From: Bacteroidales bacterium
GTDB lineage: Bacteria > Bacteroidota > Bacteroidia > Bacteroidales > UBA932
Direction: 5' to 3'
NCBI GenBank assembly: GCA_017454335.1
Contig: JAFTDE010000026.1
Span: forward strand, 1-62,297
Length of the DNA stretch: 62,297 nucleotides
Part shown: piece after piece, positions 2,557 to 21,837 of the stretch
Numbering within the stretch: the stretch's first letter is position 1
Layout of the letters: each line of letters begins with the position of its first letter
Position numbers and translations under genes: made by a program
The notes under the pieces: generated by a model
The model's database searches: none
What the model saw: the letters and a program-made list of their open reading frames with translations, nothing else
What the model was told of the DNA's origin: nothing

Positions 2557-2716
2557 TTTGCGACCTTGGATTTCGATTCCCACGGCGCCCCTGGCGCGGC
2601 AAAGGGTCTGGCGGGCTCTCCCCGAATCCTTTTCCCGTCCAGACCCTTGCCGGGCCAGGGCGAAAACGAGTGCTGTTACTCCCCCCTTGGAGGACCGGGA
2701 CTAACAGTACCAGGGA

Positions 2717-2782
2717 TGCCCGATCAGGTCGGGCATGACGATTCCATATCGGGCATGACGATCTCCGGTCGAGGATGACGGT
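2717..2782. repeat. Short palindromic/tandem repeat element in the 2499-2897 gene-free stretch
   Basis: The 399 bases without a gene (2499-2897) hold two terminators and this element. It starts with a perfect 7-bp stem TGCCCGA/TCGGGCA (2717-2723 and 2729-2735) around TCAGG. It continues as three imperfect copies of a TCGGGCATGACGAT-like unit of about 20 bp (from about 2729, 2749 and 2768). A related stem-loop lies inside the AlkD-like gene at 19521-19541 with compensatory base changes. I saw no other convincing element in 2557-2716. Confidence 0.5.
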
Positions 2783-18463: not shown

Positions 18464-19072
18464 TCAACGATCGCCGGGGGAAAGGCTGGTCTCGAACAGC
18501 CGGCGGTAGACCTCGGCCTTTTTCTCCAGGGGCAGCGGATAGGCCCGGGACGTGGAGGGCATGCGCCAGAAGCGGATGGAGCGGGCTGCCAGGGTCCCTG
18601 GCCCAGGCAGCACCAGGCTCCCGCCGACAGGCGGAACCAGGCATCCGAACTCCGCCGCGACGACTTCCGTGGCTTTTTGGCCGGTGGTAACCAGTGTATC
18701 GCACAGGGGAATCTGCCGCAACAGCGCCGGGATATCTGTGGGCGTGACCACTTCCAGGAAGGCGTCTGAGGCGTTGTCCCGCAGGCGCCGCACTTCGCAG
18801 GCGGTGTCGTAGAAGGCCAGCCCTTCCTGTTCGCAGAAGGCGCGGATGGCAGTTTCGTCGAAGCGCTTCTCCCCGGGGATGCAGAAACGGTTCTTGTCCC
18901 CGAAATGGATGAGACCCAGGATACGCCAGAAGTCGTTGATCCAGTTGGGGTAGTAGAAAGGCATGCTCCAGCGGTGGGGCTGCGGCGGGAAGCTCCCCAG
19001 GAAAAGGATGCGCGCGTGGGGCGGCAGGAAGGGCTCGAAGGGATGCTTCTCGGTGGGAATGTCAGCGTGCAT
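18464..19072 (-). CDS. Uracil/hypoxanthine-DNA glycosylase superfamily protein
   Basis: 202 residues. Family 6 uracil-DNA-glycosylase-like signature: LFLGSFPP near 28-35, FYYPNWINDFW near 44-54 and the C-terminal MPSTSRAYP motif. Such enzymes remove deaminated bases, often hypoxanthine, and leave an abasic site. Its start overlaps the end of the AlkD-like gene by 11 bases, making a two-gene base-excision repair unit. It converges on the outer-membrane gene with 37 bases between stops. Confidence 0.85.
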   Translation of the reverse strand: MHADIPTEKHPFEPFLPPHARILFLGSFPPQPHRWSMPFYYPNWINDFWRILGLIHFGDKNRFCIPGEKRFDETAIRAFCEQEGLAFYDTACEVRRLRDNASDAFLEVVTPTDIPALLRQIPLCDTLVTTGQKATEVVAAEFGCLVPPVGGSLVLPGPGTLAARSIRFWRMPSTSRAYPLPLEKKAEVYRRLFETSLSPGDR

Positions 19073-19886
19073 GGCCTTTCAGATAGCTTTGCCGCTCCGC
19101 CTCCGGGAACCTCTCGATGGCGTAGCGCAGCATGGTGCGGGGCATGGTCCGGCAGCGAATGCCGCCCGCAGGATCCGGTCCCAGCAGATAGGTCTCCAGT
19201 GAGTTTTTGTCCCGTTTCCCCGCTTCGCGGAGCAGCCAGCCGACGGCTTTGTGGATGAGGTCGTGGGGATGGTGCAGGAGGATGTCCGCGATGGCGAAAG
19301 TGTCCTCCATCTGGCCGTGGCGGATGAAGGTCATGGTGCTGACGATGCCGATGCGCTGCTCCCAGAGGGTCCGGCCGTCGCGGGCCAAGTCGTACAGCAG
19401 GCTGCGGTCCTTGTCCAGCAGCCATTCCCCCAGCAGCGGATAGCAGCTCAGGTCCACCAGGTCCCAGTTGTTGATGGCGGCGGTATGGGCCAGGTAGAAG
19501 TCGATGCACTGTTGCCGGGGACCCCCGATCAGGCCGGGGGTGACGCTCCCCTCATGCCCGTCGGAACCGTCCTGCCCGGCAGGGACCGGGCATCCCTTCG
19601 CATGCCGGAAAATCTCCACCAGGGCCAGCAGCGCTGCCAGCCGGAGCTCGTGGTACGGGCTGGCCAGGCACTCCTCCAACTCGGGGAAAGCACCGGAATG
19701 GCCGTCCCAGGGCGTTCCCAGCCGGCGCCAGGTGGCTTTCACCACGGCTCGCGTCACGGGCACCTTGATCCCCAGGAAGCAGTCGCCCTCGCCATACTGT
19801 CCCGGCCCGGTCTTGAAAAATCGGGCCAGCCCCGCCACCTGGGACGGGTCCGCATGGGAGAGCATTTCAGTCAGGAGCAGATTCAT
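19062..19886 (-). CDS. AlkD-like DNA alkylation repair protein carrying an in-frame repeat insertion
   Basis: 274 residues against about 220-240 for the family. AlkD-type HEAT-repeat glycosylases excise alkylated purines. Family landmarks are present: LGIKVPVTRAVVK near 40, INNWDLVDLS near 142-151, FIRHGQMEDTF, HDLIHKAVGWLLREAGKRD and the terminal MLRYAIERFP. Between FRHA (about 97) and CIDFYL (about 127) lies a Gly/Pro/Asp-rich block of about 28 residues, where the family normally has a few. Its DNA holds two stem-loops related to an intergenic repeat near 2717. The gene follows the TSCPD-YbaK gene by 13 bases and overlaps the UDG-like gene. Confidence 0.88.
   Translation of the reverse strand: MNLLLTEMLSHADPSQVAGLARFFKTGPGQYGEGDCFLGIKVPVTRAVVKATWRRLGTPWDGHSGAFPELEECLASPYHELRLAALLALVEIFRHAKGCPVPAGQDGSDGHEGSVTPGLIGGPRQQCIDFYLAHTAAINNWDLVDLSCYPLLGEWLLDKDRSLLYDLARDGRTLWEQRIGIVSTMTFIRHGQMEDTFAIADILLHHPHDLIHKAVGWLLREAGKRDKNSLETYLLGPDPAGGIRCRTMPRTMLRYAIERFPEAERQSYLKGHAR
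19519..19592 (-). repeat. Palindromic repeat element inserted in the AlkD-like coding sequence
   Basis: Two perfect stems occur: ACCCCCG/CGGGGGT (19521-19527, 19535-19541) and TGCCCGG/CCGGGCA (19573-19579, 19586-19592). The first stem, its loop and the following TGACG align with the intergenic element at 2711-2745 over about 35 bp (about 26 identical). The differences in the stem are compensatory. The frame is kept through the element, encoding residues of about 98-124. Confidence 0.65.
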
Positions 19887-20820: not shown

Positions 20821-21684
20821 ATGAGAAAGATTTATTTGCTTACGACGGAGCATCTTGAATGTGGCCTGTGGTTCCGGGACGAAGAAGATTTCATTGTGGC
20901 CATGAACTATATCGCCATCCAGGCGGCATGCAGCCCGGAGGCCGTCATCCTGGCCTTCATCCTGATGTCCAATCACATCCACATTGTCCTGCGGGGCAGC
21001 CGTGAGGAAGTCATCGACTTCGTCAACCAGTTCAAGCGGCGCTATTCCCAGTATTACCGCCAGAAATACGGGACCCGGGAGTTCCTACGGGGAAACGGGC
21101 TGGATGTCCAGGCAGTTCCCCTGGAGGACGAAGCCCCGGAACGCGTCATCGCATATGTGCAGATGAACTGCGTGTCCGCCAACATCTGCGCGCATCCCAG
21201 CCAGTATCCGTGGGGCAGCGGAAACTGTTTCTTCAACCCGGACAGACCCGCCGGAAAGCGGATGGGAGACTTGTCCGTCCGGGCGCGGCGGCAACTGCTG
21301 CGCAGCGCCAACCCCCGGGTGCCGGAGGACTGGCTGGTCAGCGAAAAAGGATATATCTTGCCGTCATCCTATGTGGATGTCCCGGCGGTCGAATCCTGTT
21401 TCCGGACCCCCAAACGGATGAATTTCTTCCTGAACAATTCCTCCAAGGCCAGGAAGCGGATTGAAAAAGCCGAGGCGGCTTTCCGGGACCAGAGCATTCT
21501 GGTCTGTGTTCCGGACCTGTGCCGCAGCCTCTTCCAGAAAGGGTCTTTCCGGGAGCTGCAGGGCGACGAGAAAGTGGAGTTCGCCAGACAGATCCGCTTC
21601 CGTTTCAGCGCCGACGCCACCCAGATCGCCCGCGTGTGCGGAATCACCTACGCCGAGGCGGCGGCGCTGTTGGACCGGGTCTGA
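20821..21684 (+). CDS. RAYT-type (REP-associated tyrosine) transposase, IS200-like Y1 family
   Basis: 287 residues from ATG 20821. The HUH motif is NHIHIVL (His52, His54), and the likely catalytic Tyr112 lies in VIAYVQMNCV, at the place of the YIHxNPV motif. LMSNHIHIVLRG and FKRRYSQYYRQKYG are typical of Y1/RAYT proteins. The C-terminal 150 residues are an extension ending in a helix-turn-helix-like segment (DATQIARVCGITYAEAAALL). No partner accessory transposase and no IS ends are visible, but two REP-like palindromes lie 65 and 116 bases after the stop. Function: single-strand cleavage and dispersal of REP sequences; in most genomes RAYTs are domesticated single-copy genes. It has its own promoter (20756-20786). 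Confidence 0.85.
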   Translation: MRKIYLLTTEHLECGLWFRDEEDFIVAMNYIAIQAACSPEAVILAFILMSNHIHIVLRGSREEVIDFVNQFKRRYSQYYRQKYGTREFLRGNGLDVQAVPLEDEAPERVIAYVQMNCVSANICAHPSQYPWGSGNCFFNPDRPAGKRMGDLSVRARRQLLRSANPRVPEDWLVSEKGYILPSSYVDVPAVESCFRTPKRMNFFLNNSSKARKRIEKAEAAFRDQSILVCVPDLCRSLFQKGSFRELQGDEKVEFARQIRFRFSADATQIARVCGITYAEAAALLDRV

Positions 21685-21749: not shown

Positions 21750-21786
21750 CGTGCAAGGTGTCCCGAAAACCGGGACACCTTGCACG
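21750..21786 (+). repeat. REP-like palindrome 1 downstream of the RAYT gene
   Basis: Perfect 16-bp stem (21750-21765 with 21771-21786; inner half GGTGTCCCG/CGGGACACC) with 5-base loop AAAAC. It shares 32 consecutive bases with the second copy 51 bp downstream. Confidence 0.85.
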
Positions 21787-21800
21787 AAATCGGCCCAAAA

Positions 21801-21837
21801 CGTAGAAGGTGTCCCGAAAACCGGGACACCTTGCACG
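21801..21837 (+). repeat. REP-like palindrome 2 with a GTAG foot
   Basis: Same core palindrome as copy 1. The 5' foot reads CGTAG instead of CGTGC, so a GTAG tetranucleotide (21802-21805) precedes an 11-bp hairpin (AAGGTGTCCCG/CGGGACACCTT). A GTAG-type foot is the landmark that RAYTs recognise in characterised REP systems. The spacer from copy 1 is 14 bases. Confidence 0.8.

Follow-up and report, generated by a model that had tools for sequence, protein, structure and literature searches.

REP-like palindromes carried in frame at recurrent loop sites of an AlkD-like repair protein in Bacteroidales

Introduction

The closest described relatives of the element reported here are the palindromes of the CGTC-tagged REP superfamily, defined by Di Nocera et al. 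(2013; PMC3733652) with Bacteroidetes among the hosts. According to the parts of that article used here, CGTC REPs lie partly inside genes, DNA-repair genes included, they have no dedicated transposase, and RPE-4 and RPE-6 of Rickettsia are assigned to them; orthologues with REPs at about the same site appear in those parts only for recB, in two Xanthomonas species. Units of the superfamily have a stem of 8-9 bp with AT in the first two pairs, a loop of 4-5 nt and a 3-nt tail close to CCA, and head-to-head dimers are the prevailing arrangement. The report on the R. japonica genome (PMC3767692, likewise used in part) finds RPE-4, RPE-6 and RPE-7 at a shared site in orthologous genes, the family differing from one orthologue to the next. 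It leans to a common origin of the three and does not exclude hotspots, the choice between hotspots and a single origin being left open there because all aligned orthologues carried the insert. Inserts of this kind are not described in the portions of PMC5771137 and PMC6006769 that were available, and in the open-licence literature searched we recognised no earlier report of them in Bacteroidales or in AlkD.

Here we analyse contig JAFTDE010000026.1 (62,297 nucleotides, hereafter the window) of a Bacteroidales bacterium whose assembly is incomplete (78.8%). A first-pass annotation made from the letters had proposed that an AlkD-like gene in the window carries a mobile palindromic repeat in frame.

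Results

A palindromic insert in an AlkD-like gene

The gene is assigned to the AlkD family by its DNA_alkylation domain (Table 1) and by positions that agree with the WDxVD and Arg residues of solved AlkD. W141, D145 and R178, which we take to be the catalytic residues, are invariant across the 74 aligned rows and match the WDxVD and WxQR stretches of the solved AlkD chains (presumably those from B. cereus), so that the enzyme looks functional, judged by its sequence, with the insert in place. Translation of the insert itself is predicted from the open frame.

About 28 residues, missing from most relatives, separate two conserved segments, HELRLAALLALVEIFRHA and RQQCIDFYLAHT; the segment bearing the conserved WDLVD follows soon after. 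In an alignment of 105 rows (the window and 104 others; L032-L036 were omitted for low score and L030 is a fragment without this region) the window's loop segment counts 38 residues; 63 rows have exactly 17, and 17 rows have at least 22. The roughly 28 extra residues first claimed are confirmed. At the DNA level the insert holds two units that face each other. The two stem-loops had been described as perfect: both stems exist, but one ends in a G-T wobble and the outermost pair of the other is mismatched. The proposed alignment with an intergenic copy at 2711-2745 (about 26 of 35 positions identical) also held, at 27/35 against 19516-19550, compared with a maximum of 25/35 for the same post hoc query in 60 first-order simulated windows, and reading of the letters confirmed that the stem differences between these copies are compensatory. 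The gene next to AlkD (18464-19072, minus strand) gave no Pfam match at 1e-5; by eye, we take its product to resemble a uracil-DNA-glycosylase-like protein.

Table 1. Features of the window. R1 is a covariance model built from seven copies; the three scored REP units are themselves among its rows.
Feature	Position	Strand	Details
REP unit outside AlkD, partner copy of the first-pass annotation	2713..2740	-	R1 47.4 bits; exact pattern match
AlkD-like DNA alkylation repair gene	19062..19886	-	274 aa, open frame; PF08713 E=1e-49
Loop 1 insert of AlkD, head-to-head pair of CGTC-type REP units in frame	19516..19597	-	GCPVPAGQDGSDGHEGSVTPGLIGGP
REP unit 1 in AlkD, CGTC head towards centre	19518..19545	-	28 nt; R1 45.5 bits
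Spacer between the heads of the two units	19546..19567		22 nt
REP unit 2 in AlkD, facing unit 1	19568..19596	+	29 nt; R1 39.6 bits
Y1 (IS200-like, RAYT-like) transposase frame beside AlkD gene, candidate mobiliser	20821..21681	+	PF01797 7.2e-6

Copies and anatomy of the palindrome

A mobile repeat with further genomic copies had been postulated, and the covariance model found them: on the whole 2.16-Mb genome R1 placed at least 50 matches at E<=1, of which at least 44 have E<0.01. These are lower bounds, as scoring covered 150 of the 2177 candidates from the first look, and the E-values are rough (one further unit surfaced separately). An exact pattern, written after the copies had been seen, matched 14 times in this genome against none in the reversed control. 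A looser pattern occurred in 22/37 genomes of the genus against 0/24 from other families of the order (control 0/61), and this restriction, together with the short loop of most AlkD orthologues, agrees with the prediction that the insert is lineage-specific.

A second repeat family, TCATTCTGAGCGAAGCGAAGAATCT, has the same GTCAT head and an ATC tail; its exact pattern was present in 14/61 genomes, all within the genus, and searching for that exact pattern gave no match in the window's own genome. This family was modelled twice, as R2, whose rows were partly composed, and as R3, built from 12 genome copies chosen regardless of genes. Replacing R2 by R3 upheld the in-gene cases, added a match outside AlkD (L053) and moved a weak NtrC match (L206, 2034) to E 0.024.

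The anatomy of the AlkD palindrome fits the CGTC-tagged superfamily, as far as sequence and the parts of PMC3733652 used here allow the comparison. Both AlkD units have the unpaired CGTC (TGTC) head, the modelled stem is 8 bp, the loop is 5 nt (6 in the 29-mers) and a short unpaired tail follows. Head-to-head (HH) dimers, as in the AlkD insert, also occur among the eight close pairs formed by the 44 units of the genome (4 HH, 2 TT, 2 HT), some units lie in genes, and the copies are dispersed in the tens expected of such a family. Unlike CGTC REPs, the tail reads CCC or CTC and not CCA, and some units have the 6-nt loop; AT first pairs are seen, by eye, in most higher-scoring units, from which the AlkD units depart with AC/GT and a mismatched outer pair. 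Because the palindrome fits a superfamily that holds RPE-4 and RPE-6, its in-frame insertion is of a known kind, and the comparison with Rickettsia palindromic elements first drawn for this locus was apt on the same partial source. The same annotation had called an in-frame repeat unfamiliar in this group; the insert itself stands, but its kind has already been described in several phyla.

Several observations accompany the repeat. Tandem truncated half-units adjoin full units at 2741-2785 of the window, at about 1733-1785 of L039 and in the inserts of L046 and L232; they show repeated TGACG heads, translated as HSEQ/HPEQ, and resemble the ATGAC-rich extensions of extended RPE-4. A second hairpin, TTACTCGTGGCCATTTGTACACGAGTAGT, which may be a separate element or a terminator, lies near a REP unit at about 2840-2880 of the window and near 1545-1585 in L004. 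The idea that REPs are pre-adapted to read-through was rejected: 4.42 of six frames are open, against 5.03 in single-base shuffles (31/44 units).

Two loops of AlkD orthologues hold two REP families

AlkD loci were located by peptide patterns outside the insert, the best 80 loci of the contig scan being kept, and thus the sample, the window excepted, was not selected for the insert; its 106 rows comprise 101 different proteins, some contigs occurring twice (e.g. L172 and L082). In 99 of the 107 loci (545,147 bases) R1 gave 21 matches at E<0.01, 18 of them within AlkD frames, and R3 gave 11, of which six lay within AlkD frames. Together, 24 of the 32 matches fall in frames that account for 12.9% of the DNA. 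When matches were merged by hand into lineages the count became 16/22, or 15/21 without the window (p about 1e-9), an enrichment that sets AlkD against its own flanks only; with R2 instead of R3 it is 24/31, or 16/21 by lineage. In the remaining eight loci R1 had no match at E<0.01, and R3 recovered only the L013 unit again in L173, where the DNA is identical.

The matches in AlkD frames lie at two places. Loop 1, the site of the window's insert, is filled in the window, L008/L042, L039, L045, L064, L046, L065, L075 and L089; loop 2, near the AlkD C-terminus, is filled in L013, L015, L018, L038, L046, L060 and L064. Both loops are occupied in L046, by the second family, and in L064, by the first. 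In other lineages, too, these loops are therefore recurrent slots for REPs of two families. AlkD had been singled out as host of an in-frame repeat; it is one, but not the sole oddity, as both its loops and the linkers of other proteins (below) are affected recurrently.

In empty orthologues, as in other genera, a short KKDPAL-like segment remains. Among the residues examined for REP-end-like DNA at the empty slots, the highest-placed rank 19 and 11 of 241 for loop 1, and 6 and 9 for loop 2, which is suggestive, although neither slot comes first. The expanded loops of L009, L067, L051, L055, L047, L061 and L023 gave no REP match at E<0.01 in the loop concerned, so the AlkD loop is variable anyway; its length differs among many aligned orthologues.

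In-frame units in other genes

The proposal that other genes might carry in-frame copies proved right. In the window's genome nine of the 44 REP units are in frame, in six genes including AlkD. Five of these lie inside or between domain matches, namely the two AlkD units, one where the AAA+ lid of an NtrC-type regulator meets HTH_8, and two between the two OEP stretches of an OEP efflux protein; the other four flank the domains on one side, two of them in the N-terminal linker of an outer-membrane barrel protein, one in an HU-CCDC81 protein and one in the C-terminal tail of a GH2 enzyme. A further unit, at the beginning of a 3-keto-disaccharide hydrolase, was left out of the count, as it may be upstream of the true start. 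Six proteins besides AlkD were put through Pfam, so further cases may be missed.

Orthologues of NtrC and OEP were chosen because the window's genome carries REPs in them, and their counts are therefore uninformative on frequency. The first family occupies NtrC linker 1 in 6/30 rows and the second in 5/30, linker 2 holds the first family in three rows and the second in two, and the OEP linker holds them in 4/23 and 2/23 rows, respectively, with two further first-family matches near the OEP N-terminus; the seven second-family cases in NtrC linker 1 and the OEP linker were recovered again with R3. In L212, a conserved NtrC stretch at 1679-1708, EKAVILSEAKNLSAKD, matches the second-family models R2 (29.4 bits) and R3 (24.9 bits), which is either a chance resemblance or a replacement of native codons by the repeat.

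The relative G019 contains at least 110 REP units at E<=0.001 (150/954 candidates scored). Among its 30 best units, 12 lie inside or between domain matches, six on one side, and 12 are intergenic or undecided, with 19 of 42 candidate frames put through Pfam and the NtrC and AlkD cases assigned by homology. The 12 strict cases are in a TMEM260-like protein, DsbD, RsmA, UvrD/PcrA, NtrC (two), TraG (two), GH3, AlkD, an AroD-AroA fusion and TatD. A preference for DNA-repair genes was considered and, on a plain count, set aside: UvrD, TatD and AlkD are among the 12, and the others are unrelated.

A neighbouring Y1 transposase

Like GTAG REPs with RAYT, the palindromes are short hairpins, often dimeric, and Y1 transposase relatives are present in 52/61 genomes of the genus; the Y1 frame beside AlkD is a candidate mobiliser. 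Unlike GTAG REPs, the head is CGTC, and neither repeat clustered clearly around the 30 Y1 loci tested, whose flanks held R1 matches in 4/30 and R2 matches in 2/30. In the window's genome R1 matches lie beside two of four Y1 loci, one of them by virtue of the AlkD units. R1 density at Y1 loci is 1 per 18 kb, or 1 per 27 kb when the two AlkD units are set aside; this is near the value of at least 1 per 20 kb in G019 and above that of at least 1 per 49 kb in the window's genome. Regular flanking of a transposase gene by the repeats, the hallmark of RAYT-mobilised REPs, was not seen at the loci tested, and a role of Y1/RAYT as dedicated mobiliser is not supported. Just downstream of the Y1 frame lie two copies of a different hairpin with core GGTGTCCCGAAAACCGGGACACC (21750-21786 and 21806-21837).

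Repeated insertion or a single origin

A repeated, structured element is thus carried in frame by the AlkD-like gene, whose conserved residues are intact, and is missing from most orthologues. Very probably it is a head-to-head dimer of a CGTC-type REP that inserted in frame into an AlkD loop, and such slots are re-used as mobile hairpins land repeatedly. The palindromes would move as small non-autonomous elements, landing widely, in genes and between them, and would survive inside a gene only if they preserve its frame and sit in a permissive, probably exposed loop. Re-use of slots would follow from the small number of positions that tolerate REPs, perhaps helped by some target preference. 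The peptide encoded by the AlkD insert probably does nothing useful. One family stands in place of the other at the same orthologue position in the two AlkD loops, the two NtrC linkers and the OEP linker; that such loops are docking slots exchanging REP cassettes, through machinery able to recognise the slot or the REP already in it and not by random insertion and filtering, seems to us rather improbable.

We also consider it unlikely that each slot goes back to one ancient insertion followed by divergence, conversion to other REP families or many losses. The loop 1 inserts do start at about the same codon across lineages, and the REP matches in NtrC linker 1 (11/30 rows) are clustered in one part of the tree, which makes one early event, followed by a change of family, quite possible for this linker. 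For AlkD, a quick tree of 106 rows required at least nine changes for loop 1 and seven for loop 2, and a careful tree of 62 rows, in which 22 of 59 inner branches are open and the bootstrap had not settled, required seven for each (L173, which has the same DNA as L013, was excluded from both trees, and L075 and L089 are outside the smaller one). Constraining the filled rows to one clade was rejected both for loop 1 (8/62 rows filled, p_AU 0.00645) and for loop 2 (7/62, p_AU 0.000157), which disfavours a single ancestral insertion in AlkD. Filled L046 is sister to empty L041 (support 100/95), and filled L013 to empty L172 (100/98). These trees count changes and treat gain and loss alike; gains are favoured because the short segment of other genera is still present in empty rows, and repeated loss would have needed to restore it. 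The AlkD row nearest to the window is 80% identical, so no close strain shows the window's site without the insert. On these alignments and trees, the AlkD data favour repeated REP insertion.

Discussion

Could the insert have been domesticated, altering the regulation or binding of AlkD, for instance through an mRNA hairpin or an affinity of the HEAT repeats for hairpin DNA? The insert RNA can form one long hairpin (-50.4 kcal/mol, z -2.05), REPs are enriched in AlkD over its flanks, and the AlkD relatives AlkF and AlkG bind branched DNA, according to the part of PMC4433238 used here. The folding score is modest, however, with 6/200 shuffles equally stable; unrelated proteins (TatD, RsmA, GH3, AroDA, TraG) have such inserts too, and most AlkD orthologues dispense with theirs. 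We therefore regard domestication as very unlikely. Chance growth of a Gly/Pro-rich loop, or an assembly artefact, is scarcely conceivable: loop length does vary in many AlkD orthologues, but the genome-wide copies (14 exact-pattern matches against none in the control) refute both, and inserts of the same kind occur in AlkD of other assemblies.

The locus stands close to the Rickettsia elements, as far as the sources used in part describe them. Like RPE-4/6/7 and extended RPE-4, the elements are palindromes with ATGAC (the reverse of GTCAT), in frame in many genes, with different families at the same site of orthologues and extra head motifs in the inserts; the solvent-exposed sites of RPE-4/6/7 have a counterpart in AlkD that is only presumed. 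In contrast to Rickettsia, repeated insertion is favoured here by the tree and by sisters that lack the insert, in another phylum and, with AlkD, another gene. The AlkD relatives come from Bacteroidales or related assemblies, and because these hosts are neither Rickettsia nor Wolbachia we do not file the element as an RPE.

Compared with the literature examined, some of it in part, the additions are the two REP families at two fixed AlkD loops, with one clade per loop rejected and two well-supported sisters empty, the recurrence of such slots in NtrC and OEP linkers, and the 12 of 30 examined G019 units that sit inside or between protein domains. For Rickettsia, going by the part of that report used here, the choice between insertion hotspots and remnants of a single event was not settled for same-site in-frame palindromes; the question is testable in this genus because it has orthologues with an insert and others that lack it, a pair of REP families and several affected genes. 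In some bacteria, repeats named 'extragenic' can frequently encode protein, which matters for gene annotation, and our results suggest that REPs found at the same spot across related species reflect repeated landing in tolerant protein loops.
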